Shown here: positions 4,032 through 29,090 of the stretch, piece by piece
Layout: every line of letters starts with the position of its first letter
Position numbering within the stretch: position 1 is the first letter of the stretch
From: Ferrovaceae bacterium
GTDB lineage: Bacteria; Pseudomonadota; Gammaproteobacteria; Burkholderiales; Ferrovaceae
Direction of reading: 5' to 3'
Assembly: GCA_027311025.1 (NCBI GenBank)
Contig: DAICZS010000001.1
Coordinates: 62,001-126,000 of the forward strand
DNA length: 64,000 nucleotides
Position numbers and translations under genes: made by a program
The notes under the pieces: model-generated
Seen by the model: only the letters and a program-made list of their open reading frames with translations
Databases searched by the model: none
Told to the model about the DNA's origin: nothing

Positions 4032-5360
4032 ATGAACGACTTTTGGGGTGAAACACTCGACCAAATCCGCTCCGAGCTTCCGGAGCAGCAATTCACGACC
4101 TGGATCAAACCATTGCAAGCAGAAATGGGCGATGGCTTCGTCACGCTGTCGGCGCCCAACCGGTTCATCCTGCAGTGGGTCAAGGATCGCTACCTTTCAC
4201 GCATCGAAAGCATGGCTCGGCTCAACGGCATTCACGCCATCAAACTGGTTCAACGCAACGAAGCGCCACCTTCCAGCAATGAGAAAACCAGCCACGCGTA
4301 TGCGGAACCTCTCGATGAAACCCCAAAGCAGGCGGACAACAGACACCGCCTCAACCCAAACTTTACCTTTTCCACATTCATCGGCGGTAAAGCCAACCAA
4401 CTGGCAAGGGCGGCAGCACTTCAGGTCGCTGAAAACCCCGGCGCCGCCTATAACCCCCTCTTTATTTATGGTGGGGTGGGGTTGGGGAAGACGCACCTGA
4501 TCCAGGCCATTGGCAACCAGATCCTGGAACGGCAACCCAACGCCAAGGTGCGCTACATGCACGCTGAAAAGTATGTCTCGGATGTGGTCCGGGCCTACCA
4601 GCACAAATCCTTCGACAGCTTCAAGCGCTATTACCACTCGCTCGACCTGTTGATGATTGACGACATTCAGTTCTTCGGAGGCAAGGCCCGAACGCAGGAA
4701 GAGTTCTTTTTCGCGTTCAATGCCCTGGTGGAGTCACACCGACAAGTCATCATCACCTGCGACAGCTTCCCGAAGGAAATTGCCGGCATGGAAGAACGGC
4801 TCATTTCCAGGTTTGGCTGGGGGTTGACCGTTGCCATCGAGCCGCCTGAGCTGGAAATGCGTGTCGCCATCCTGATCAATAAAGCCCGCCTGGAGGGCCT
4901 TGCCCTCGACGAGAATGTCGCGTTCTTCATCGCCAAACACATCCGCTCGAATGTGCGCGAACTGGAAGGGGCGCTCAAGCGTGTCCAGGCCTACGCGCGC
5001 TTCACGGGAGACGCCATTACCCTGCAATCGGCAAGGGAATCGCTCAAGGACTTGCTGGCGCTGCAACACCGGCAGATTTCCATTGAAAACATCCAGAAGA
5101 CCGTCGCCGACTATTACAAGATCAAAGTGGGCGACATGTTCTCCAAGAAGCGCACCCGCGCCCTGGCAAGACCACGTCAAATGGCCATGGCCCTGGCCAA
5201 GGACATCACCAACCTCAGCCTTCCGGACATCGGTGAAGCCTTTGGGGGACGGGATCACACGACGGTGCTGCACGCCTGCAGAAAGATGCAGGAACTTTGC
5301 GAAAACGACAACACCATTCAGCGTGATTTTCTGGCGCTTCAGCAGATTCTCAACGGTTGA
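4032..5360 (+). CDS. dnaA: Chromosomal replication initiator DnaA
   Basis: DnaA binds DnaA boxes, unwinds the origin and recruits the DnaB helicase. At 442 residues it is on the short side because the linker domain II (about 80-108) is small. Domain I starts at the N-terminus ([13 protein letters not shown]). Domain III has Walker [10 protein letters not shown] (147-155) and Walker [10 protein letters not shown] (206-214). Domain IV ends with the DnaA-box recognition signature [15 protein letters not shown]. The ATG at 4032 is preceded by an AT-rich tract without a strong Shine-Dalgarno sequence. dnaN follows after 213 bases that carry two perfect DnaA boxes. Confidence 0.98.
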
Positions 5361-5573
5361 TAAGTCTGATGATAACCTTGGGATACTTTGGGGACGGTTT
5401 GTGGATAAATCAGGCCATTCAAAAAAATGAAAACTTATCCACAATTCGTTCAAATAATATACCGCGGTTACCCCAAGCGATGGCCGATACGCAATATAAT
5501 GTTTCGCTAGGGATTTTCCGGTTGTTCCACCGCAAGAGCCCCGCTCCAATCTATTAACTATCAGGTTTATTTC
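5361..5573. promoter_or_regulatory. oriC: Candidate oriC in the dnaA-dnaN spacer
   Basis: Two perfect DnaA boxes face each other: TGTGGATAA at 5400-5408 and TTATCCACA at 5435-5443, 26 bases apart with an A-rich stretch between them. An AT-rich segment (about 5444-5461) follows and could be the unwinding element. The region is non-coding and also carries the dnaN leader, with AGGT 8 bases before the dnaN ATG. Whether this spacer, the one upstream of dnaA, or both form the functional origin cannot be settled from sequence alone. Confidence 0.6.
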
Positions 5574-9130
<3,557 letters not shown>

Positions 9131-9165
9131 CGCGGCCGACTGATCTGAGGCAAGCCGCACCGGCC

Positions 9166-10005
9166 ATGCTTTCCATCATCATTCCTACCTGGAACAACCT
9201 CGGGTTGTTGAAGTGTTGTATTGCCAGCATCCAGCGTTGCACCACCCTGCCCTTTGAGATCGTCCTGCATGTCAACGATGGCAGTGACGGTACGCTGGAG
9301 TGGGTGCGTTCCCAGGACATCCTGCACACGCATTCACCAGAGAACATTGGAATCTGCCTTGCCATGAATCAGGCTGCGGCGCTTTCCACGCAGCCTTATC
9401 TGGTATACCTCAACGACGACATGGTGTGCTGTCCGGGTTGGGATACTGCATTGATGGCGCGGATAACCGCGCTCGGCACCGATGCCTTCATGGTTTCAGG
9501 AACCATGATCGAGCCGCGCGAAACGGGCAATCCTTGCGTCATCGTTCGGGATTACGGCAACGGCCCCGAGAATTTCAGGGAAGAGGCCTTGCTGCGCGAC
9601 CTGCCAGGCCTTCACAAGGACGACTGGTATGGCGCCACATGGCCGCCCTCCATCGTGCACCGCGATTGGTGGGCCAAGGTGGGGGGCTACAGCCCCGAGT
9701 TTTCACCGGGCATCAGTAGCGACAATGATTTTTCCATGAAAATGTGGCATGCGGGCTGCCGGATCTTTCTGGGCGTGGGCGCCTCGCGGGTTTACCACTT
9801 CATGTCCCGTTCCACCGGCAAGGTGGTGCGTAACGATGGACGGAAGCAGTTTCTGCACAAGTGGGGCATGACGCAGTCCACCTTTGACAGACATTTCCTG
9901 CGGCGCGGCCAGCGTGCACGGCAAGCCAGTCTCCCTGAGCCCGTCAAGTCCGCCCGGTATTACTGGGATTTGCTGCGAGGAAAAATCAAGCTGATCTGGC
10001 GCTGA
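9166..10005 (+). CDS. Glycosyltransferase family 2 protein
   Basis: A 279-residue GT-A-fold glycosyltransferase, acceptor unknown. The N-terminus SIIIPTWNNLGLLKCCIASI is the classical GT2 nucleotide-binding start, with DGSDGT near residue 43, the DXD-like YLNDDM near residue 84, and late SDNDFSMKMW and VYHFMS segments found in rhamnosyl/hexosyl transferases of cell-surface glycans. There are no membrane segments, so it probably acts on the cytoplasmic face. It stands alone 35 bases after gyrB, away from the main polysaccharide run, and ends 4 bases before the topA stop on the other strand. A terminator-like hairpin follows. Confidence 0.85.
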   Translation: MLSIIIPTWNNLGLLKCCIASIQRCTTLPFEIVLHVNDGSDGTLEWVRSQDILHTHSPENIGICLAMNQAAALSTQPYLVYLNDDMVCCPGWDTALMARITALGTDAFMVSGTMIEPRETGNPCVIVRDYGNGPENFREEALLRDLPGLHKDDWYGATWPPSIVHRDWWAKVGGYSPEFSPGISSDNDFSMKMWHAGCRIFLGVGASRVYHFMSRSTGKVVRNDGRKQFLHKWGMTQSTFDRHFLRRGQRARQASLPEPVKSARYYWDLLRGKIKLIWR

Positions 10006-19609: not shown

Positions 19610-20874
19610 TGGCAAATCACATCCTCGTAGTCGATGACGAGGTCGGCATTCGCGAACTGTTGTCCGAAATCCTGAGTGACGAGGGCTATCGGGTCAGGCT
19701 GGCCGCCAATGCGATGGAGGCCAGGTTGTTGCGCCAGGAAGAGCGCCCTGATCTGGTCCTGCTGGATATCTGGATGCCCCAGATGGATGGCATCACCCTG
19801 CTCAGGGAATGGGGTTCTGCAGGACAGCTCAACATGCCCGTCATCATGATGTCCGGCCACGCTTCTGTAGATACGGCTGTTGAGGCAACCCGTATTGGCG
19901 CGTTCGACTTTCTGGAAAAACCCATCGCGCTTCCCAAGCTGCTGGCAACGGTTGAACGCGCCTTGCGCAAGGGAGAAGCCGAATTCCGTCCTGAGCTCTC
20001 GAGCATTCAGTTGGGCAAGGGACAGTTGATCAGCGACCTGCGGCGCCGTCTGGATCAAATCGCCAATCATAATGCGCCGGTTTTGCTGGTGGGTGAGCCC
20101 GGTTGTGGGGTTGAGCTTGCAGCACGCCATCTGCACCGACCCAATACGCCCTGGTTTGCTCCGGCAGATAACCAGTGGATGGCCGAGAATCCATTCGAAC
20201 CCCTGACCGCATGTCAGGGTGGCCTGATCTTCATTGCTGAAATCAGCGATCTTTCCAGGGCGCAGCAAAAGGGGCTGTCACAGTTGTTGGGCAAACTCGA
20301 AAAGCACCATGTTCGTCTGGTATGTGCCAGCAGTTACCCCGCAGCGACGCTGATTCAGGAAAACATGATGGATCCGGAACTGGTTACCCGGCTCTCTGCC
20401 CTGATCATCACGGTTCCGCCCCTGCGTGACCATGCGGAAGACATTCCTGAAATTGCCACGGCATTGTTAAGCCGGATGACAGAAGCAGGGGAAGTTCCTG
20501 TCAAGACCCTGAGCACCGGCGCCCTGAACATGCTGCGGCAGATGTCCTGGCCCGGTAATTTGCCTGCACTGACCAATGCCGTGAGAACCCTGGCGCTCAC
20601 CACGACAGCTTCGGAAATTCTTGCCGACGATGTCGCGAAAGTCGCCAATCAGTTCGACAGGACCACGCCCATGGCCGCCAAGCTGGCCGGCTTTGACCTG
20701 CCCCTGCGAGAGGCTCGCGACCAGTTTGAGAAAGCCTATTTCGAGTATCACATCCGCCTGGAGTCGGGAAACATGTCCAGGGTTGCCGAACGTGTGGGCC
20801 TTGAGCGCACGCATCTGTATCGCAAGCTCAAACAACTGGGCGTCAGGCTGGCTTCGCAGCGAGGAGAAGAGTGA
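19609..20874 (+). CDS. ntrX: NtrX-like response regulator with degenerate AAA+ domain
   Basis: A 421-residue partner of NtrY. The receiver domain is intact: acidic DDE near residues 10-12, phospho-acceptor Asp in LVLLDIWMPQMDG, and the Lys in FLEKP. The central domain resembles sigma-54 activators but is eroded. Walker A reads GEPGCGVE where GESGTGKE is expected, so the ATP-binding Lys is gone. Walker B reads GGLIFIAEI, without the Asp, and no GAFTGA loop is present. The C-terminal Fis-type helix-turn-helix is kept (MSRVAERVGLERTHLYRKLKQLG). It most likely acts as a plain DNA-binding regulator, not as a sigma-54 activator. It overlaps the following glycosyltransferase gene by GTGA. Confidence 0.9.
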   Translation: MANHILVVDDEVGIRELLSEILSDEGYRVRLAANAMEARLLRQEERPDLVLLDIWMPQMDGITLLREWGSAGQLNMPVIMMSGHASVDTAVEATRIGAFDFLEKPIALPKLLATVERALRKGEAEFRPELSSIQLGKGQLISDLRRRLDQIANHNAPVLLVGEPGCGVELAARHLHRPNTPWFAPADNQWMAENPFEPLTACQGGLIFIAEISDLSRAQQKGLSQLLGKLEKHHVRLVCASSYPAATLIQENMMDPELVTRLSALIITVPPLRDHAEDIPEIATALLSRMTEAGEVPVKTLSTGALNMLRQMSWPGNLPALTNAVRTLALTTTASEILADDVAKVANQFDRTTPMAAKLAGFDLPLREARDQFEKAYFEYHIRLESGNMSRVAERVGLERTHLYRKLKQLGVRLASQRGEE

Positions 20875-22172
20875 GTCGTGACACTCACCCACAGCGCTGG
20901 CTGATTTTGTCCCACGGCTTCAACATGGATGGCCGGGCAGCGAGCCTGACCATCACGGACAAGATTCCCCATCTCATGGCAGCCGGAATCGAGCCCATTG
21001 TATTGAGCGCCGTGACCGGCAGTCGCGACAGGCGATTCAGGCATGTTCAGTTGTTGCCCTGGGGGCCGTCCGGTTTACGCTTTGATTTACGCCATATGAT
21101 CGCCTTGCGGTGGGGGCGGGACTGGCGCTATCGATTGGTGACCGGTTCCATTTCCCTGCTGCTGCTTCCCTTTATATTGCTGGAACGAGGCCTCATTGGT
21201 TTGCAAAGCCAGTGGTCCTGGACGCCCGCAGCGGTCGCGAGAGGCTGCTGGTACATCCTGAAGTACCGGCCGGCGCTGGTGTATTCGACAGGGGGTGCCT
21301 ATTCGGCGCATTGGGCAGGCTATTGGTTGAAGCGTCTCACGGGGATTTGCTGGATTGCAGAAATTCATGATCCGATGTTGTTTCCGGGCACCGTGCCTGC
21401 AACGCGCAACCTCAGGTTCTGGGCAAAACTGGAAGGCATGATTTGTGAGCGCGCGAATCTGGTGTGGTGGTTTACGGACCAGGCGCTGGCCAGCGCCAGG
21501 CGGCGTCATCCCATGCTGGGCGACCGGGGCCTTGTGATTCTCCCAGGTGCCGAACCACCACAGGCCAGGGCTTCGTATGCCAAGGGAGCGCATCTGGTAC
21601 TTGGGCATTTTGGCTCGCTGTCTTCCGTTCGCAGCCTGCGTCCGCTGGTGGAGGCTTTTGCCGCATTTCGCGAGTCCCATCCCGAGATGGCCGAACGCGT
21701 CTTCGTGCATTGTTACGGTGGTCCCATCGATGGGCCTGGACAGCAGGCCATCCGGACCCAGGGGCTGGAGGCGCATTTTGTAAACCAGGGGCGCCTGGAG
21801 TGGGACCCGGTGACACGGCTTACTGGCCGGGAGCGCATCCAGCAGCGCATGCATCAAGTGGATGCCCTGCTGCTGCTGCACGGTACCACGGCGGATTGTG
21901 CCGAATATATCCCGTCAAAATTTTACGATTACTTGTGGGCAGGGCGCCCGGTAGTGGGGTTGGTGCACATCAATCCGCAATTGGCCCGCCTGATTGCGGA
22001 TCATGGGGGCTATGCGGCCGAAGTCGACAACCGGGAGGATGTGCAGCAGCTGTTTGTCAGGGTTTTCGAGGACTGGCGCGATGACCGGCTGCGAGGCAGT
22101 CGGCTGCCGCCCATTGGCGCGGCACAAGCGGTTGACGCCATTTTGGCCCGTACGGAGCAGCTTGTGAAATGA
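20871..22172 (+). CDS. Glycosyltransferase, GT4-like
   Basis: A 433-residue GT-B-fold glycosyltransferase. The N-terminal part has a hydrophobic helix near residue 80-100 (ISLLLLPFILLERGLIGL) and the acceptor-side segment YRPALVYSTGGAYSAHWAGY. The C-terminal part has HFGSLSSVRSLRPLVEAF and YIPSKFYDYLWAGRPVVGL, the donor-binding E/K-rich signature of GT4-type enzymes. Donor and acceptor cannot be read from sequence. The GTG start at 20871 has GAGGAGAA just upstream and overlaps the ntrX stop; the gene ends in an ATGA overlap with the O-antigen ligase-like gene, so it is tied to both. Confidence 0.85.
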   Translation: MSRDTHPQRWLILSHGFNMDGRAASLTITDKIPHLMAAGIEPIVLSAVTGSRDRRFRHVQLLPWGPSGLRFDLRHMIALRWGRDWRYRLVTGSISLLLLPFILLERGLIGLQSQWSWTPAAVARGCWYILKYRPALVYSTGGAYSAHWAGYWLKRLTGICWIAEIHDPMLFPGTVPATRNLRFWAKLEGMICERANLVWWFTDQALASARRRHPMLGDRGLVILPGAEPPQARASYAKGAHLVLGHFGSLSSVRSLRPLVEAFAAFRESHPEMAERVFVHCYGGPIDGPGQQAIRTQGLEAHFVNQGRLEWDPVTRLTGRERIQQRMHQVDALLLLHGTTADCAEYIPSKFYDYLWAGRPVVGLVHINPQLARLIADHGGYAAEVDNREDVQQLFVRVFEDWRDDRLRGSRLPPIGAAQAVDAILARTEQLVK

Positions 22173-23353
22173 TCGCACGCTTCATGGCCTACGGCATGCT
22201 GTTGATGCTTCCAGTGAGCGTGGCCGGCGTCAACCTTTTTGGGGGAGGGCTGTTGCTGGCTGCACTCCTGTCCAGGGAGTTTTGGTGCGCGGCACGCAAG
22301 TTGTTGACCAACCCCATGGTGCTGGTGACGATGGCCATGCTGGGCTTGCTGTTGCTGGGCATGCTGTATACCTCAGGCCCCCGCCAGGAAGCCTGGGCTG
22401 TGTTCATGAAGTATCGCAAGTTGTTGTTTTTGCCCTTATTGCTACCCTTTTTCCAGGAAGATCGCCATCGTCTGACAGCCATGCGCCTGCTGGCGCTCTC
22501 GATCTCCATCACCGTCATGGCCTCCTGGAGCGAGTTTCTGGGCTGGACGCATATCAGCGATCCCGCTTACGGAGGCCCTCCCGGTGATGCGGTTTTTAAA
22601 ATGCACATACCCCAGGGAACGCTGTTTTCCCTCCTGATTGCGCTCTGTATAGGCCTGGCTTTCGCTACGCGCTCCAGGCTGATGCAGGCGCTGCTCCTGG
22701 GAATGGCGTTGCTGACGGCGCTGGATATTTCCTGGGTCATGGTCGGCCGAACGGGAAAGGCGATTTTGCCCGTGCTGGCCATATGGGCCGTGTGGGAGGC
22801 GCTGCGATTTTGCCGCCCGCCTGCCAGGGTTTACTGGAGCATCGTCCTGGGTGCGTTGGCCCTCATCTTGGGCGCCACCCTCTGGGTGGCTGCCACGCCG
22901 ACTACCCTTCTGGGCTCGGTCCCCAGGGAAATCCATCAGTCCGAGGAAACGGGCATTCCAACCTCACAGGGAATCCGGATGGCGTTTTACCGCAAGAGCG
23001 CCGAACTGATTTCGCAACGACCCTGGAGCGGTTACGGAACGGGATCCGTGTTGACGGAAACCGAAATCCTGGCGGCAAAGGGCCAGACGGAAGTGGCGCG
23101 GATCCCCACGGTCAACCTTCACAATGAATTCCTGATGTGGACCGTTCAATTGGGAGTCGCCGGATTGACGGCCATCCTGCTGTTCTTTGGCATCATGCTG
23201 CGTGCTTCGTTTGGGCGCCCCGTCCCGATAGCAATCCTGCTGCGCGGACAATGGGTGGTTTTTGTCGCAGGTTGCCTGTTCAATTCCTATCTGCTGGATT
23301 TTGCCGAGGGCTATGCAATGGTCCTGAGCGCTGGGATACTGCTCCCGTTATGA
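22169..23353 (+). CDS. O-antigen ligase/polymerase family membrane protein
   Basis: A 394-residue integral membrane protein with about ten hydrophobic helices across its length (for example ARFMAYGMLLMLPVSVAGV, TMAMLGLLLLGMLYT, ILLRGQWVVFVAGCLF). A large extracytoplasmic loop contains SQRPWSGYGTGSVL and VNLHNEFLMWTVQLG, the HNEFL-type motif of the Wzy_C/WaaL family. Members either ligate glycan to lipid A core or polymerise repeat units in the periplasm; sequence alone does not tell which. It overlaps both neighbours by four bases (ATGA). Confidence 0.86.
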   Translation: MIARFMAYGMLLMLPVSVAGVNLFGGGLLLAALLSREFWCAARKLLTNPMVLVTMAMLGLLLLGMLYTSGPRQEAWAVFMKYRKLLFLPLLLPFFQEDRHRLTAMRLLALSISITVMASWSEFLGWTHISDPAYGGPPGDAVFKMHIPQGTLFSLLIALCIGLAFATRSRLMQALLLGMALLTALDISWVMVGRTGKAILPVLAIWAVWEALRFCRPPARVYWSIVLGALALILGATLWVAATPTTLLGSVPREIHQSEETGIPTSQGIRMAFYRKSAELISQRPWSGYGTGSVLTETEILAAKGQTEVARIPTVNLHNEFLMWTVQLGVAGLTAILLFFGIMLRASFGRPVPIAILLRGQWVVFVAGCLFNSYLLDFAEGYAMVLSAGILLPL

Positions 23354-25257
23354 AACTCGTCGATCTGTTCAGGGTCATTCCCACTTCCATTGAGGTACCC
23401 ACGCCATTTGCCGTGTGCAACCCTTCCGTGATGGCTACGGGAAGCGGCTGGTCCGTTCTGGTCCGGGCGTTGGACCCTCTCCCCTATTCCGGCCCAGAGG
23501 CGCCTTATCTCAGCAGCGAAAACTGGCTCGTGAAGTACGATGCCTATCTGCGACCGCAATTCACAACCAGGTTACTGGATCAGGAGGTTCGGGAGCGCTG
23601 CATCGAGGCGCGCAATGGGCTCGAAGATGGCAGGCTCTTTATGTGGTCAGGTCGGCAGTGGGCGTTGTTCAGCGGGTTGCAACGCAGCCGTCGGGGGTAC
23701 ATCAACGCCATGATCCTGGCGGAGGTGGAGGGTGACCGCTTGTGCAACCCCATCGTCCTTCCTTCGCCGCATCAACTGTCCCGGGAAAAAAACTGGATGC
23801 CCTGGGTGATGGACAACGAACTGTATCTGGTTTACTCGACGCAGCCCCTCGAAGTTTATCGTTACACGCCGGATGGGCTGATTCGGGTGCATGGCGGGGT
23901 TGCTGTCCCCAAAAATTCTGGCGCCATGATATCCGGGTCCTCGCAAGTCATCCCGTGGGGAGAGGATTACCTGGCCATCACGCACCAAAGAAACCGCGCA
24001 CCGTTGGCAACGCGTCTGATGCAGAAATATGTGACTCGAGATCCGGACTACCAAAGAAAGAAAGTACTCTTCACCCACCACATGCTGTTGCTGGATCGCC
24101 ATTTCAACATCAAGGCGCAGTCGCGGGCCTTCCATTTTGAAACCTCTGGAATCGAATTTTGTGCCGGATTGGCCAGTCAGGACGGTCGTGTCCTGATTTC
24201 CTATGGTGTGATGGATGAAAAAGCGCGTCTGCTGGAACTGGACCCCTCACAGGTGGATCGAATCCTGGGTCAAAAGGTGCGGCACCCCAACATGACGAGA
24301 ATTGCACCGCCTGTACAGCCTGACCGGACGCTACCCAGTATCGATCTCATCGTGCTCAATTACCGGAATTTCGAGACCACGGCGGCGCGCTGCCTCGACT
24401 CGTTATGGCCGCAGCACGATGCGTCAAGAATCCGCGTGACATTGCTGGATAACGGCTCTCCCGACAGCAGCCCTGCACAGATCAGGGAATATGCAAAAGG
24501 GCACACCCAACTGGAATACGAGTGCCTGACGGACAATTTGGGGTTTGCAGGAGGGATGAACCACGCCGCCCGGAAGGGACAGGGTGAGTGGCTGCTGCTG
24601 GTGAACAACGATACGATTTTCCCGCCGGGCACCCTGAAAAACCTGTCGCGAGCCCTGGCTTCTGCGGGGCCTGACATTGCCGCCATCGGACCCGTGACCA
24701 ACGCTGCAGGAAATGAACAGGATTACTATCTTGAGGGGACGGCGGAAAGTGTGCTTGCGACCGCTGCCCTGTTTCATCAAACCCCGATCAATCGCCTCCT
24801 GCCAGTGTACCGTCTGGATTTTTTCTGTGTGGCCATACGCCGATCGGTCTGGAATGAGCTGGGGGGGCTGGATACCACCTATGGGCTGGGCTACTACGAA
24901 GATTTCGATTTCAGCGTCAAGATGCGCCATGCAGGGTATCGCTTGATGATGTGCGAAGACGCCTTCGTTTATCATCAGGGGGGCAGCAGCTTCAAGCAGT
25001 CGGCGAGTTCCAGGAATTTGATCCGTGCCAACCGTGACCTGTTCACCGGCCGCTATCCCGAGGTTGCCTTGCCCCACAAGCGGGAGGGTAATCTCGAAAC
25101 GCTGCGCTTGTACCAGCATTTGATCGAGTCGGGCTATCCTGCCGCTCAGCTGCTGGAACGGATTGCCCTGCGCATGAAGGCGCTGGCCCGAGAGGCCCCC
25201 AAAAGCCTGCACAAACGTCGCCAATGGGAAAAGGCCCAGGCATCGCTTCATCTTTAG
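23350..25257 (+). CDS. GH130-like beta-propeller fused to GT2 glycosyltransferase
   Basis: A 635-residue two-domain protein. Residues 1 to about 320 resemble the five-bladed propeller proteins related to GH130 mannoside phosphorylases: GLEDGRL (90-96) parallels their EDPR motif, followed by EKNWMPWV (146-153), SGSSQVI (195-201) and GIEFCAGLA (267-275). From about residue 330 a GT2 domain begins (IDLIVLNYRNFETTAARCLDSL), with LDNGS (367-371), DNLGFAGGMNHAA, VNNDT (418-422) and YYEDFDFSVKMRHAG. There are no membrane segments. The GT2 half is confident. The propeller assignment is by motif only, and whether it is a transferase, phosphorylase or binding module is unknown. Start ATG overlaps the previous stop. 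Confidence 0.75.
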   Translation: MKLVDLFRVIPTSIEVPTPFAVCNPSVMATGSGWSVLVRALDPLPYSGPEAPYLSSENWLVKYDAYLRPQFTTRLLDQEVRERCIEARNGLEDGRLFMWSGRQWALFSGLQRSRRGYINAMILAEVEGDRLCNPIVLPSPHQLSREKNWMPWVMDNELYLVYSTQPLEVYRYTPDGLIRVHGGVAVPKNSGAMISGSSQVIPWGEDYLAITHQRNRAPLATRLMQKYVTRDPDYQRKKVLFTHHMLLLDRHFNIKAQSRAFHFETSGIEFCAGLASQDGRVLISYGVMDEKARLLELDPSQVDRILGQKVRHPNMTRIAPPVQPDRTLPSIDLIVLNYRNFETTAARCLDSLWPQHDASRIRVTLLDNGSPDSSPAQIREYAKGHTQLEYECLTDNLGFAGGMNHAARKGQGEWLLLVNNDTIFPPGTLKNLSRALASAGPDIAAIGPVTNAAGNEQDYYLEGTAESVLATAALFHQTPINRLLPVYRLDFFCVAIRRSVWNELGGLDTTYGLGYYEDFDFSVKMRHAGYRLMMCEDAFVYHQGGSSFKQSASSRNLIRANRDLFTGRYPEVALPHKREGNLETLRLYQHLIESGYPAAQLLERIALRMKALAREAPKSLHKRRQWEKAQASLHL

Positions 25258-25270
25258 AGAAAGGTTGCAG

Positions 25271-26068
25271 ATGAACAAATATCTGCTTTACAGGATTTCC
25301 AGCCGCATCAATGCAAAACCCAGAATTGCCGGATTTTCGAAACTGGCTTGCCTGGATAACCTGCTGGCTTCGTTTCCGGGATATCGCATGATCTGCATTG
25401 CCGATCATTGCGATGAGGAGACGGTGGCGCTGTTGTCACGAAAGGATTTTTACAGGCTGGAAGTGACGCGCCTGGGGCAGACTCCCGCCTTTTACCATCT
25501 CGTGAATCGCGCCTTGGCGCAACTGGATGATGATGACATCGTTTATTTCATCGAAGATGACTATCTTCACGTTCCGCAAGCGGGCGAAATACTGGAAGAA
25601 GGACTGACGGTGTTCGATTACGTCACGCTCTATGACCATCCAGACAAATATGGCGTTTTTGGCAAGGGCAGAAACCCTTACGTCGACGATGATCGTCTTT
25701 CAGAACCCACCAGGATATTCAAGGGTCGTCGGGTGCTGTGGCGCACCACCAATTCCACGACCCATTCATTTGCCTGTCTTGTTCGTACCTTGCGGGAAGA
25801 TCGTTGGGTATGGCTGGGAAAGCTGAAGCTGCGTCCCAAGCTGCAGGATTTTTACGACTGGATCTTTTTAACCCGGCCCGGGTTTAACGGAGGCCGGCTC
25901 AAGGCGAAGTTGCTCCTGCGCCAGTTGGGAGCTCATCTGGCACCATTGGTGGGGTTTCGAAAGCGCACCCTGGGTGTGCCCATTCCTTCGGCATCAGCGC
26001 ATCTGGAGGAAAAATATCTTCCGGATGGTTTCGACCTCAAGGGCCTTCAGCGCAGCAGTGAGTCGTGA
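25271..26068 (+). CDS. Uncharacterised glycosyltransferase-like protein
   Basis: A 265-residue soluble protein I cannot place in a named family. It has a GT-A look: an N-terminal alpha/beta region with YRMICIADHCDEETVALL, then a very acidic stretch LAQLDDDDIVYFIEDDYLH (about 84-100) that could be the metal and nucleotide-sugar binding DXD site, and later TTNSTTHSFACLVRTL. Position within the polysaccharide run, 13 bases after the propeller/GT2 gene and overlapping the acyltransferase gene (TGATG), supports a role in glycan assembly. The start ATG at 25271 has GAAAGG upstream; a TTG two codons earlier is an alternative. Confidence 0.7.
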   Translation: MNKYLLYRISSRINAKPRIAGFSKLACLDNLLASFPGYRMICIADHCDEETVALLSRKDFYRLEVTRLGQTPAFYHLVNRALAQLDDDDIVYFIEDDYLHVPQAGEILEEGLTVFDYVTLYDHPDKYGVFGKGRNPYVDDDRLSEPTRIFKGRRVLWRTTNSTTHSFACLVRTLREDRWVWLGKLKLRPKLQDFYDWIFLTRPGFNGGRLKAKLLLRQLGAHLAPLVGFRKRTLGVPIPSASAHLEEKYLPDGFDLKGLQRSSES

Positions 26069-28011
26069 TGCGCGCCAGTGCGCCATTTCATTTGAGTCAC
26101 CCCAAGTATCGCACCGACATTGACGGGCTGCGAGCGGTAGCCATTCTGTCGGTGGTTGGGTTTCACGCGTTTCCGGACTGGGTTCAGGGCGGTTTCGTCG
26201 GGGTGGACATCTTTTTCGTGATCTCGGGTTTTTTGATCAGCACCATCATTTTCGAGAATCTGGAAGAGGGGCATTTCAGTTACGCCGAATTTTATGCACG
26301 CCGGATCAAGCGTATTTTTCCGGCGCTGATTGTGACCCTGCTGACCAGCTTCGTTCTGGGCTGGGTCATGTTTCCCTCCGAATACTTCAAGCTGGCTGGC
26401 AAGCATTTGTTTTCTGGCGCGGCCTTCCTGTCCAACTTTGCGCTACTGAGAGAGTCCGGTTACTTCGATGCTTCAGGAGAGATGGATCCCTTCCATCACT
26501 TATGGTCACTGGCCGTTGAAGAGCAGTTTTATATTTTGTGGCCCCTGCTGCTGGGGCTGGTGTGGAAGCGGCGCTGGAATTTTCTGCTGATGACGCTGGT
26601 GGTTGCGGCGAGCTCTTTCTCTTTTGACATCAGCACGCTGGGCACTGATGCCGCGGTGGCTTTTTACTCTCCCCTGTCCCGTTTTTGGGAGTTGATGATT
26701 GGCGGCGTGCTGGCGTACCTTTCCCTGCACAAGCCGCATCTGCTGAAGCAGAGGCCACAGTGGATGTCCGCGGTGGGCGGCCTGCTGCTGGTCCTTGGGT
26801 TTGCCTTCATCAGCCCGCGCAGCGATTTTCCGGGGTGGCTGACCTTGCTGCCCACGCTGGGGGCTTTCCTGCTCATGGGTGCGGGCCCCGGGGCCTGGCT
26901 GAACCGGCTGGTCCTGTCCCGGAAGGTGCTGGTGTGGTTTGGCCTGATCAGTTATCCGCTGTACCTGTGGCATTGGCCCCTGCTGGTTTTTGCCCGTGTT
27001 CACGCACTGGGGGACCCTACGTTGCTGGAGCGCGTGCTGGTGGTGGGGTTGAGCATTGCACTGGCCTGGGGCACCTATCAGTTTTTGGAGAAGCCCGTGC
27101 GTTGGCGCTGGCCGGGCAAGCCGGTGGTGGCGACGCTGCTGGTATTGCTGGGGGCATTGGTGGTGACGGGAAAGCTGACTGATCGGGCCGAAGGCTTTCC
27201 GCAACGGGCAGCCAACCTCAAGGTCTTTCGGTATCACTACGATGCAGCGCAGGGATACAGGAGCGGTCAGTGTTTTCTGGATGCGGCCGCGGGGCGGTAT
27301 TTGGGCAGTGATTTTAAGGAAGTCTGCACGGGGCGATTCCCGGAAACGCTGGCCATGCCGCTGGTTCTGTTATGGGGGGATTCCTATGCGGCTTCACTGT
27401 ATCCGGGGCTGAAACATCAAAGTGAAGTGCGCGGCTTTGCGCTGGCGCAATACACGGCCAACAGCTGCCCACCCGTCGCAGGCCTTCCTATCGACAAAAG
27501 AAAGAACTGCATGCCGGTCAATGAATTCATATTGGACAAGATCAAGACACTCAAGCCGCACACGGTGGTGCTTGCCGCCAACTGGCTGCTCTATGACCGC
27601 AGAAATCGCAACTGGACCCAGATGGATCCGGACAAGCTGCGCGCCACGATTGCGGCGTTGAAAGGCCTGGGCATTGCGCACATCGTGCTGGTGGGGCAGC
27701 TGCCCACCTACAAGATCGATCAACCCATGGTGGGTAGCAGGGTATTCGAGGCAGATGCCACCGACCGCACGTTACTCAGCCTCAATCCGCAGGCCTTCAC
27801 CATCAACGATGGGATGCGTCAGTTTGCAAGGGAGAATGGCGTGGACTTTTTGTCTCCCATGGATGCCTTATGCAATTCCCAGGGCTGCCTGATCTCGGCT
27901 TCACCCCATGAATTGATTCCCACATCATTCGATTATGGTCATCTCACGGGAGAGGGTTCACGCCTGCTGCTGGAGCGGGCACTGGGCTCAGGCCAGATTG
28001 CGCTGCCCTGA
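26068..28011 (+). CDS. Acyltransferase 3 with C-terminal SGNH domain (OafA-like)
   Basis: A 647-residue membrane protein that probably O-acetylates a surface polysaccharide. The N-terminal acyltransferase-3 domain (about ten helices, to residue 370) starts YRTDIDGLRAVAILSVVGFH with the catalytic His, then FVGVDIFFVISGFLI and FYARRIKRIFPAL. The periplasmic C-terminal part is an SGNH-type esterase fold: block I Ser in LLWGDSYAASLYP and the late His in YGHLTGEGS. This fused layout is that of OafA and related O-antigen acetylases. It is the last gene of the run, and its final 68 bases overlap the convergent heptosyltransferase-like gene. Confidence 0.92.
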   Translation: MRASAPFHLSHPKYRTDIDGLRAVAILSVVGFHAFPDWVQGGFVGVDIFFVISGFLISTIIFENLEEGHFSYAEFYARRIKRIFPALIVTLLTSFVLGWVMFPSEYFKLAGKHLFSGAAFLSNFALLRESGYFDASGEMDPFHHLWSLAVEEQFYILWPLLLGLVWKRRWNFLLMTLVVAASSFSFDISTLGTDAAVAFYSPLSRFWELMIGGVLAYLSLHKPHLLKQRPQWMSAVGGLLLVLGFAFISPRSDFPGWLTLLPTLGAFLLMGAGPGAWLNRLVLSRKVLVWFGLISYPLYLWHWPLLVFARVHALGDPTLLERVLVVGLSIALAWGTYQFLEKPVRWRWPGKPVVATLLVLLGALVVTGKLTDRAEGFPQRAANLKVFRYHYDAAQGYRSGQCFLDAAAGRYLGSDFKEVCTGRFPETLAMPLVLLWGDSYAASLYPGLKHQSEVRGFALAQYTANSCPPVAGLPIDKRKNCMPVNEFILDKIKTLKPHTVVLAANWLLYDRRNRNWTQMDPDKLRATIAALKGLGIAHIVLVGQLPTYKIDQPMVGSRVFEADATDRTLLSLNPQAFTINDGMRQFARENGVDFLSPMDALCNSQGCLISASPHELIPTSFDYGHLTGEGSRLLLERALGSGQIALP

Positions 28012-29053
28012 TTTGCCTGATTTCACGCATGACGGTATCCACGCTGAGTTCGTCCAGACATTGGCTATGGCTGTACCTGTTCTTTTCACAGCCCTCCTCC
28101 CGGCAGGGCACACAGGCCCCCTCTCCCTGAATCAAACTGACGTTGCCCGACCGTTGTGATCCCTTCATGTGCCAGGGGCTTTCGTCGCGCGCGTGGCTGG
28201 ATGGCCATGGGCCCCATTTGACGGGGTTGGATGGGCCAAACAATGCAAGAGTGGGAATGCCAACGGCAGCCGCAATGTGTGTGACCCCGGTGTCAGGTCC
28301 CACAAACAGGGTGGCCCGGGCAAGCAGATCCGCCGTCTGTGCAAGGCTCAGTGTGCCGCACAGGTTGATGGCATCGCTGGCTTCGGCAATTGCGTCTACA
28401 TACTGCCGTTCTTCAACATCGGGGCCGCCCGTCAGAACAACCTGAAACCCTTCAAGGCCAAGTTCGTGGGCGAGTGCCATCCAGTTGGTTTGCGGCCACA
28501 TCTTGTAGCTGAATTTTGGATAGGGGTGAAGTACCACATAAGGTTTTTTTCCGAGCACGCCCGGGATGGCTCCGCCTGCCGTCGGTGGAATCACCCGGTA
28601 TTGTTTTGCCACGCCCAGAAGGTCCAGTACCTTGAGGCCCATGGACACGGTGTGCGTATGCAGGTCGTCAAACAGCAGTCGTTTGCCCAGCAGCCGCGTT
28701 GAAAGCCAGGCACTGTGGGCGTTGTACAAACCAGCAGAACGTTTTCCGGCAACGAAACAGTACCATCGCGCGCGATCGGAAGAGACGGTGGTCAGTGCGA
28801 CATCATAGCGTCGCCACAATAGGGAGAACTCCTTCAGTCGGGCAAGGAAACCTGCGCGATGGGGAACGATCCTGATGTGGTCAACATCGGGGTTGCCCTC
28901 GAGAACGCCTTCCATGCCACGCAGGACCATGACATCGATTGTTGCTGCAGGGTCGGCTTCGCGGATGGCGCGAATGACGGGTGTGGTGAGCAGTACATCC
29001 CCGATACGCAGGGTGCACACGACCAGATATTGCTTGCGATAAGGGGTCTTCAT
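27944..29053 (-). CDS. Glycosyltransferase family 9 (heptosyltransferase-like)
   Basis: A 369-residue protein of the WaaC/WaaF/RfaF type that adds heptose or a similar sugar to lipopolysaccharide core. It shows RIGDVLLTTPVIRAI near the N-terminus and the donor site FVGPDTGVTHIAAAVGIPTLALFGPS in two blocks. The end carries a Cys cluster (GACVPCREEGC, then SQCLDEL) seen in a subset of these enzymes. I chose the ATG at 29053; a TTG at 29065 is also open. A large inverted repeat sits immediately before the ATG. The 3' end overlaps the acyltransferase gene on the other strand. Confidence 0.85.
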   Translation of the reverse strand: MKTPYRKQYLVVCTLRIGDVLLTTPVIRAIREADPAATIDVMVLRGMEGVLEGNPDVDHIRIVPHRAGFLARLKEFSLLWRRYDVALTTVSSDRARWYCFVAGKRSAGLYNAHSAWLSTRLLGKRLLFDDLHTHTVSMGLKVLDLLGVAKQYRVIPPTAGGAIPGVLGKKPYVVLHPYPKFSYKMWPQTNWMALAHELGLEGFQVVLTGGPDVEERQYVDAIAEASDAINLCGTLSLAQTADLLARATLFVGPDTGVTHIAAAVGIPTLALFGPSNPVKWGPWPSSHARDESPWHMKGSQRSGNVSLIQGEGACVPCREEGCEKNRYSHSQCLDELSVDTVMREIRQIRAAQSGLSPVPAPAAGVNPLP

Positions 29054-29090
29054 ACGGTCCGCCAATCTATCATAGATTGGCGGAGACCGT
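29054..29090. repeat. 37-base near-perfect inverted repeat
   Basis: Positions 29058-29070 and 29072-29084 are perfect reverse complements (13 bp) around a single central C. With a two-base bulge (29084-29085 region) the pairing extends to the outer arms ACGGT (29054-29058) and ACCGT (29086-29090). It lies between the phosphoesterase stop (29108) and the ATG of the GT9 gene (29053). There is no T-run on either side, so an intrinsic terminator is unlikely; an operator or a structured leader hiding the ribosome site is possible. Confidence 0.8.

Follow-up and report, generated by a model that had tools for sequence, protein, structure and literature searches.

Gene organization of the locus

The window, a stretch of 64,000 nucleotides from a Ferrovaceae genome, carries an envelope-glycan operon, one gene of which encodes a propeller module fused to a glycosyltransferase. 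The ORF of this gene starts with an ATG at 23350 and its stop codon ends at 25257, giving a single chain of 635 residues; the start codon overlaps the 3' end of the upstream O-antigen-ligase-like gene as ATGA. The genes of the locus and the parts of the fusion are listed below.

20871..22172, + strand: protein of 433 aa without a Pfam match, with a very weak likeness to a PEP-CTERM system glycosyltransferase
22169..23353, + strand: O-antigen ligase/polymerase-like membrane protein (PF04932, 39 bits, cut-off 31.7)
23350..25257, + strand: fusion gene, GH130-like propeller followed by GT2, 635 aa
23350..24279, + strand: module predicted to be a five-bladed beta-propeller, from residue 1 to near residue 310 (AlphaFold2 model and VIA-align)
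24340..25011, + strand: GT2 (GT-A) domain, residues 331-554, with LLDNGSPD, NNDT, YYEDFDF and YHQGG (PF00535, PF13641)
25012..25254, + strand: C-terminal helical extension, shared with a stand-alone GT2 orthologue
25271..26068, + strand: protein of 265 aa without a Pfam or NCBIfam match, adjoining the fusion in relatives too
26065..28011, + strand: acyltransferase-3 plus SGNH protein (PF01757, PF19040)
27944..29065, - strand: GT9 heptosyltransferase-like protein (PF01075), end of the locus

The order of the ligase-like, acyltransferase and GT9 genes is kept in relatives. The complete fusion is present in six of 32 Ferrovaceae genomes, the source genome counted among them, and is interrupted by a contig end in two further genomes; it occurs in two genera of the family, and the other five complete proteins share 66-75% identity with the window protein. 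An assembly join as the origin of the fusion is excluded by the presence of the same fusion in five other genomes, and both the ORF and the fusion are confirmed as real, not an artefact of a single assembly.

The original prediction of a GH130-like propeller with a complete GT2 domain behind it drew on the motifs GLEDGRL (90-96), EKNWMPW (146-152), SGSSQVI (195-201) and GIEFCAGLA (267-275), all of which are contained in the translation. Its GT2 part was upheld: PF00535 scores this domain at 67.4 bits against a cut-off of 23.3 and PF13641 at 48.5 bits, and the GT2 assignment of residues 331-554 is unambiguous. The domain contains DNGS, NNDT and YYED, which are the donor-binding and catalytic acidic motifs of GT2 enzymes; eight aligned proteins all keep the D, D and ED of these motifs. 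A linker-like stretch at about residues 311-330 separates the GT2 domain from the propeller. The stand-alone GT2 of a relative (L049) aligns from end to end at 39% identity, with a PKS motif in common.

Fold of the propeller and its relationship to GH130

The AlphaFold2 model of the propeller (pLDDT 75.4, pTM 0.80) has a confidence of only 50-65 at residues 181-200, 211-240 and 261-270, where several of the residues discussed below lie; the model of the full-length fusion (mean pLDDT 60.6, pTM 0.46) was set aside. The best VIA-align match of the propeller model is 9fj8 (Z 24.7, model range 2-307), and the first 21 of the 50 fold matches listed are GH130 proteins or chains matching a GH130 query (Z 21.6-24.7), GH43 coming next after the GH130-type entries with a Z of 20.0. 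Foldseek matched the model to GH130-type structures with an E of 3e-9. The module is thus predicted to be a five-bladed propeller of the GH130-type fold.

Single-sequence searches with the window propeller alone found nothing in Pfam, NCBIfam, PHROGs or PDB, and the window protein does not match PF04041 and so stays below its curated cut-off of 26 bits. The GH130 likeness emerges via relatives, profiles and fold. A profile was built from 26 aligned members chosen by hand, which come from 11 of the 21 propeller-bearing Ferrovaceae genomes, from G243, from two of the three g230 genomes (three copies) and from viruses, the viral part consisting of three phage records and eight of the nine viral representatives left after near-copy removal. 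This profile matches 7fip at an E of 1.6e-4 and 9fj8 at 8.1e-4, and hhalign against six GH130 sequences gave 95.6% with an E of 1.2e-8 over 258 columns. Nine of the 26 members match PF04041 at E up to 0.1, and one relative, L054, reaches 26.6 bits against the cut-off of 26; a phmmer search of PDB with L054 found nothing. Matches to nec1, DUF3660, Phage_B, Neopullulanase-like_C, Cupredoxin_1, DUF7628, MzaC and an antibody chain were isolated and weak and were put down to chance. The predicted GH130-like propeller at the N-terminus was thus borne out by the fold searches and profile comparisons; it had been placed within the first 320 residues, and it does lie there, with its end near residue 310, not 320.

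Conserved residues and distribution of the propeller family

Five positions of the propeller are of particular interest.

23419..23421, + strand: N24, aligned to the mannose-holding GH130 Asn of subsite -1 (Teth514_1788 Asn28), 26 of 26 members
23626..23628, + strand: D93, aligned to the proposed GH130 catalytic acid (BF0772 Asp131, BT3780 Asp142, Teth514_1788 Asp92), 26 of 26
23788..23790, + strand: K147 in EKNW, which may correspond to BT3780 Lys199 (beta-1,2 linkage determinant), 26 of 26
23983..23985, + strand: H212, aligned to the His conserved in the GH130 YHG motif, 25 of 26
24214..24216, + strand: D289, aligned to the GH130 -1 site Asp (Teth514_1788 Asp281, BF0772 Asp344), 26 of 26

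PMC4264767 names an Asn, an Asp and an Asp as the subsite -1 mannose residues of Teth514_1788, and the roles of the GH130 catalytic acid, the phosphate-binding basic residues and the hydrolase Glu pair are taken from PMC4599007. The catalytic Asp, whose conservation was in question in the original prediction, is kept throughout as D93. All 26 members, the farthest of which is 19% identical to the window protein, have N24, E92, D93, K147, E269 and D289, and N148 and W149 are invariant too; for these two, for E269 and for H243, which is nearly invariant, the alignments show no clear GH130 equivalent. As the viral members were fetched by matching to two short peptides, REKNW[MI]P and GLEDGR[LI]F, the invariance at ED 92-93 and EKNW is partly favoured by the search. 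The match of N24 rests on 7fip plus L155, L157 and 1vkd, since the 9fj8, 5b0p and 9eqq segments in the GH130 alignment lack their N-termini, and the equivalence of K147 to Lys199 was judged by inspection, in a register uncertain by about two residues. A relative outside the 26 members (G579) has Gln at position 146.

The Arg ('hRP') and Lys/Arg ('KIG') of the phosphorylases map to positions 165 and 194, as inferred from profile alignment and spacing, and these positions are mostly not basic in the 26 members; H212 is the one presumed phosphate-binding position that is kept. At the presumed hydrolase Glu positions, mapped by spacing, 165 is Glu in one member and Asp in six of the 26, and 194 is never acidic. 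Among 80 viral loci N24 is retained in 78, E92, D93, K147 and H212 in all 80 and D289 in 77, the remainder being gaps; position 165 is occupied by His in 39 of the 80 and position 195 by Arg in 33, which suggests that part of the propeller family may keep a basic site around 165/195. The apparently changed phosphate and base positions are equally compatible with a loss of catalysis.

The propeller family is a broader finding than the fusion, as it includes separate genes, phage copies and other fusions. Of the 21 Ferrovaceae genomes in which the propeller was found, 10 have it as a gene of its own. In related genera the separate gene lies at the same locus and twice adjoins a separate GT2 orthologue; eight of the 10 genomes with a separate propeller gene have no close GT2 within the fetched stretch. 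Relatives also occur in phages and within larger multi-domain proteins, and other glycan enzymes are often joined to the module or encoded next to it. The peptide-pattern search of IMG/VR yielded 143 propeller loci; six phage propellers were compared with PHROGs, none of them matching any family there, and a plasmid search by tblastn returned no propeller relative. The phage proteins of OR032571, OQ999401 and PQ898602 align with 83-88% of the window propeller at 21.6-26.1% identity. Two of these three GenBank matches were deposited as 'beta-mannosyltransferase', and MGP protein is the other name used in this set; the names were given by the depositors and may be homology guesses. Most of the scanned phage neighbours are biosynthetic in type; at two phage loci a cytidylyltransferase and a mannose-6-phosphate-isomerase-type cupin protein are encoded two genes downstream of the propeller. 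The source genome itself encodes a ManC/PMI protein (576 bits) on another contig. ManC has many purposes, which weakens its value as a pointer to the mannose donor.

Proposed function and comparison with known systems

If the propeller were a non-catalytic glycan-binding or scaffold module positioning the acceptor for the GT2 domain or for other glycosyltransferases, the changes at the positions presumed to specify the reaction (Arg/Lys or Glu/Glu) and its frequent place in or beside glycan enzymes would be accounted for, but one would expect the proposed acid to have drifted in a module that only binds, whereas six residues stay invariant down to 19% identity; separate propeller genes, mostly with no close GT2 in the fetched stretch, also argue against a scaffold, and we regard this role as unlikely. 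The three mannose-contact residues are all retained, which likewise tells against a glycosyltransferase in which the GH130 pocket has been re-purposed for another sugar or donor, such as another manno-configured sugar; N148, W149, E269 and H243, which lack clear GH130 equivalents, and the cytidylyltransferase proteins adjoining two phage copies point in that direction, and we consider such a specificity rather improbable.

The original prediction had left open whether the protein adds two sugars or builds and trims a linkage. A propeller working as a GH130-type mannoside phosphorylase or beta-mannosidase, trimming or recycling mannose alongside a GT2 domain that builds, would agree with the phosphorylases and mannosidases that are the nearest structures among the matches listed, with the weak match of one member each to two NCBIfam mannobiose phosphorylase models, with the correspondence of H212 to the conserved GH130 His, and with the viral His and Arg at 165 and 195. 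Yet the bacterial members seem, by the inferred mapping, to lack two of the three presumed phosphate-binding positions as well as the hydrolase Glu pair, and both the operon and the scanned phage neighbours are mostly biosynthetic, so that trimming strikes us as unlikely; the addition of two sugars would fit the operon better.

We propose, at close to even confidence, that the fusion protein is a two-site glycosyltransferase whose propeller adds a beta-linked mannose, probably from GDP-mannose, in the manner of Leishmania GT108. We know of no member of the propeller family with a measured activity. The protein would be cytoplasmic and work in an operon for an envelope glycan (LPS or a lipid-linked oligosaccharide), with N24, D93 and D289 of its propeller forming a GH130-type pocket for a mannose unit. 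An activated donor, in the likeliest case GDP-mannose, would supply the mannose, which would pass to the growing oligosaccharide in beta linkage by single displacement with inversion; the linkage may be beta-1,2, provided that K147 acts like Lys199 of BT3780. The GT2 domain would add a second sugar to the same or a neighbouring acceptor, and would do so before the ligase-like protein encoded by the overlapping gene upstream acts. More broadly, and more tentatively, the propellers may constitute an undescribed family of GH130-fold glycosyltransferases, making beta-mannosides from a nucleotide-activated donor and occurring in some Pseudomonadota, in phages and, as judged by fold only, in giant viruses; its fusion to a GT2 domain in this lineage would have given a single-chain enzyme for a two-sugar unit that contains beta-mannose.

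If this is true, bacterial and phage propeller transferases would join the few folds other than GT-A, GT-B and GT-C that form glycosidic bonds, the GH130 pocket would have been adapted to synthesis outside Leishmania, with a natural GT2 fusion, and a function would be assigned to the viral gene set from IMG/VR. The occurrence of fused and separate forms at one common locus makes the function of the propeller directly testable. The pairing had been put forward as one not known from a characterised enzyme, and none was found among the matches listed by a literature search outside CAZy and most subscription papers; a term search of PMC9614988 yielded nothing on the propeller fold.

The GT2 half differs from ordinary GT2 enzymes (PF00535) in bearing a propeller at its N-terminus, and the nearest NCBIfam GT2 models, EpsD (49.2 of 370 bits) and the rhamnosyltransferase TIGR01556 (30 of 200.55), stay far under their cut-offs; the three phage genes, in contrast to the window gene, stand alone. 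For the propeller, the best structural and profile matches are Teth514_1788 (9fj8) and Teth514_1789 (7fip), GH130 beta-1,2-oligomannan/mannobiose phosphorylases that share with it five blades, the Asn/Asp/Asp mannose site, EDxR and, in the last blade, FxxG and YGxxD; however, the identity in structural alignment is 13-14%, and the window protein seems to lack the presumed phosphate-binding Arg and Lys, lies in a biosynthetic operon and is fused to GT2. The beta-1,2-mannosidase BT3780 of GH130 (5a7v) has the same fold (Z 21.6), and its N74, R89, E141, D142, F344 and D363 correspond, at equal or nearly equal spacing, to N24, R39, E92, D93, F270 and D289 of the window protein; the window protein has no Glu at the presumed equivalents of Glu227 and Glu268, as mapped by spacing. 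GT108 chains are absent from the 50 fold entries listed for the propeller model and from the six sequences matched by the 26-member profile at E up to 10, and the propeller family differs from GT108 in being bacterial and viral and here GT2-fused. GT108 enzymes are described in PMC8950772 and PMC8476585 as dual glycosyltransferase-phosphorylases with the GH130 fold, and Leishmania MTP (6Q50), described as a GH130-type propeller with glycosyltransferase activity, serves as the functional model for the window propeller.

The fusion gene and its operon

The fusion gene is a single open frame of 635 codons plus a stop, and its start codon shares bases with the stop of the upstream gene (ATGA overlap). 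The operon opens with a 433-aa protein and a PF04932 ligase-like protein; the fusion comes next, followed by a 265-aa protein and an acyltransferase-SGNH protein, and a GT9 gene converges on it.

Window 20871-22172: 433-aa protein, present in 16 of 19 family stretches (G243, a genome carrying the propeller in a larger protein, left out of the count)
Window 23350-25257, forward strand: propeller-GT2 fusion gene
Residues 331-554 of the fusion protein: GT2 domain, PF00535 at 67.4 bits (cut-off 23.3) and PF13641 at 48.5 bits (cut-off 27)
Window 25271-26068: 265-aa protein adjoining the fusion; those relatives that have it show 68-88% identity

The GT2 domain, which the original prediction placed behind the propeller, is thus borne out by two Pfam families above cut-off. 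Residues 1-332 alone matched nothing in Pfam or NCBIfam (E up to 1). The 433-aa protein has no Pfam match, and shows a very weak likeness to glycosyltransferases of the PEP-CTERM system; the 265-aa protein has no match in Pfam or NCBIfam, and its FIEDDYL stretch gives the impression of a GT-A donor motif. Within window 4032-10005, the dnaA and gyrB regions have an unexpected neighbour after them, another GT2 gene (9166-10005). The genome encodes ManC/PMI (576 bits versus 373) and RmlB (501 bits versus 365), which makes a supply of GDP-mannose and dTDP-sugars probable in this organism. The fusion seems to join two genes of one pathway, in which the fused GT2 is predicted most likely to catalyze an adjacent step.

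Distribution and origin of the fusion

The propeller was found in 21 of 32 genomes of the same family. The fusion is complete in six (G000, G020, G022, G025, G026 and G027), belonging to two genera (g1 and g7), and the copies of G023 and G024, cut by contig ends, are both compatible with fusion. Ten genomes (G001, G003, G005, G007, G008, G009, G011, G012, G028 and G029) have a stand-alone propeller gene, 308-384 codons long when measured from the first possible start, and three (G014, G015 and G030) have broken or cut copies. Loci L004-L012, which by length are the same contigs as those of G022, G027, G025, G026, G023, G020, G024 and G005, were counted once. On a tree of 18 propellers, from which the short copy L010 was left out, one switch between the fused and the separate state suffices (support 71/93; 90% of bootstrap trees), with firm support on only 4 of 15 inner branches; this is compatible with one origin of the fusion. 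The propeller is rare: it occurs in 6 of 300 genomes sampled from the order, five of them from the same family including the window's own, and in 4 of 398 sampled from the phylum, the window's own again counted.

In genus g2 (G005 and G003), a separate GT2 gene directly adjoins the separate propeller gene in divergent orientation. The G005 GT2 is 39% identical to the fused GT2 over a full-length alignment including the C-terminal extension; that of G003 is broken into two frames. At the other fetched loci of g2, g4, g5 and g8 the propeller gene has the same neighbours (433-aa protein, ligase-like protein, GT9), with no close GT2 in the 7-20 kb fetched. The propeller therefore seems able to act without the GT2. 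Locus L047 gave one weak GT2 match (49 bits).

Larger proteins also contain the propeller: one of 1134 aa with a C-terminal methyltransferase in G243, and others of about 1214-1310 aa in G392, G487 and G579 (loci L062, L063 and L064, with two such frames in tandem at L063). The G392 protein, the one scanned, runs from GT2 and TPR through the propeller to Gly_transf_sug, followed by a methyltransferase match below cut-off, so that propeller and GT2 share one chain there too, in another order.

Fold and viral relatives of the propeller

An AlphaFold2 model made from nine sequences (mean pLDDT 75.4, pTM 0.80; low confidence at residues 41-50, 181-200, 211-240 and 261-270) gave as top Foldseek match in the PDB the beta-1,2-oligomannan phosphorylase 9fj8 (E 3e-9, TM 0.60 by query length). 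In a second comparison with 987 chains, the best 21 listed entries (Z 24.7 to 21.6, rmsd 3.1-3.9, 264-276 residues) were GH130 enzymes or putative glycosidases matching a GH130 query by sequence, and GH43 came next among the matches listed (Z 20.0). PF04041, the GH130 family, was matched by five of the 19 sequences in the first alignment (E up to 1) and by nine of the 26 in the second (E up to 0.1), L054 exceeding the cut-off with 26.6 bits. The 19-member profile by itself was not significant against PDB sequences (best E 0.29); the 26-member profile had six matches up to E 10, all GH130-type (7fip 1.6e-4, 9fj8 8.1e-4, 5b0p 0.16, three Uhgb_MS chains 0.39-0.41). Profile-profile comparison with six GH130 sequences reached 87.5% (E 3.6e-6) for the first alignment and 95.6% (E 1.2e-8, 258 columns) for the second. 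Fold, profile and profile-profile searches therefore uphold the predicted N-terminal GH130-like propeller, for which the libraries searched name no family save PF04041 and one weak NCBIfam match to each of two mannobiose phosphorylase models. The literature searched gave no propeller-GT2 fusion, in line with the original prediction, in which the combination is not known as a characterised enzyme. In G018, a relative that showed no propeller, a 682-codon frame (L065) matches PF04041 above cut-off (44.2 bits), and its N-terminal part gives the impression of extracellular repeats.

A scan of IMG/VR with two peptide patterns turned up relatives at 143 loci, and the analysis went on with the best 80. 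These 80 ORFs span 268-441 aa (most 310-381; some end at contig ends), lengths by which most viral copies look like stand-alone modules. Three GenBank phage records, each covering at least 80% of the query, were deposited as beta-mannosyltransferase (two) and MGP protein (one). The best six viral models listed reach TM 0.63-0.71 by query length at 15-22% identity; they are uncharacterised proteins of an uncultured Caudovirales phage, Pithoviruses and a Mimivirus. Ten neighbouring proteins from six of the 80 loci were scanned: three match GT25 (one below cut-off), and two carry cytidylyltransferase and mannose-6-phosphate-isomerase C-terminal domains. The other five are a TPR protein, a methyltransferase-like protein (below cut-offs), a protein matching a DUF (below cut-off) and two that match nothing.

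L142:5920-6672 and L144:6032-6811: phage proteins that each join a cytidylyltransferase-like domain to a mannose-6-phosphate-isomerase-type cupin, two genes downstream of the propeller gene

In a Synechococcus phage, a protein with TPR, FkbM methyltransferase and radical SAM/SPASM parts adjoins the propeller (L150:6902-9055), annotated merely as FkbM family methyltransferase.

Active site and predicted activity

Thirteen residues are invariant in the 26-member alignment (N24, R39, E92, D93, E146, K147, N148, W149, P166, G196, E269, G273 and D289), and H212, H243, F261 and F270 are kept in 25. The 80 viral copies keep them too, gaps aside, the patterns used to fetch them favouring ED and EKNW. 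G579, which belongs to neither set, carries Gln at 146 and retains N24, ED, KNW, H212 and D289. With tag offsets in the PDB chains allowed for, N24, D93 and D289 align with Asn28, Asp92 and Asp281 of Teth514_1788, subsite -1 mannose residues according to passages of PMC4264767; D93 answers the call to check the catalytic Asp, which is conserved. The Arg of GH130 'hRP' maps to position 165 (Asp 6, Asn 6, Gln 5, Ser 4, Ala 2, Glu, Gly and His 1 each; n=26) and the Lys/Arg of 'KIG/RVG' to 194, hydrophobic or Pro in all 26; at position 195, 15 members have Ser and 11 have Arg. By their spacing, 165 and 194 would be the phosphate-binding positions that become Glu227 and Glu268 in mannosidases, and on this mapping the window protein would keep the mannose site and acid with neither a hydrolase nor a full phosphorylase signature. 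Unlike it, the viral copies have His at 165 in 39 of 80 and Arg at 195 in 33 of 80; some may keep a basic site, and the donor or the handling of phosphate may be different in the viral branch.

We favour the prediction, from sequence, model and analogy, that the propeller would be an inverting beta-mannosyltransferase with activated mannose as donor, given the biosynthetic setting, the mannose-shaped GH130 pocket with its acid, the apparently altered positions for phosphate and base, and the precedent of GT108 (Leishmania mannosyltransferase-phosphorylases on the same fold). Weighed against the retained acid, a binding-only module is unlikely; against the mannose-shaped pocket, a transferase for another sugar is slightly less likely; and a trimming enzyme, set beside the apparently altered phosphate and base positions and the biosynthetic setting, is the least probable of these alternatives.

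Both the GH130 fold and the concept of a transferase built on it, the kind to which a beta-mannosyltransferase would belong, are already known. Passages of PMC4599007 report that changing Glu141, Asp142, Lys199 or Asp363 of BT3780 abolished activity, and give the Lys of NKD as the beta-1,2 determinant. Glu141, Asp142 and Asp363 correspond to E92, D93 and D289, and K147 lies about where beta-1,2 GH130 enzymes carry that Lys, the register being uncertain by about two residues. The spacing of 15, 54 and 19 in the window protein (N24-R39, R39-D93, F270-D289) agrees with the 15, 53 and 19 of BT3780 (N74-R89, R89-D142, F344-D363).
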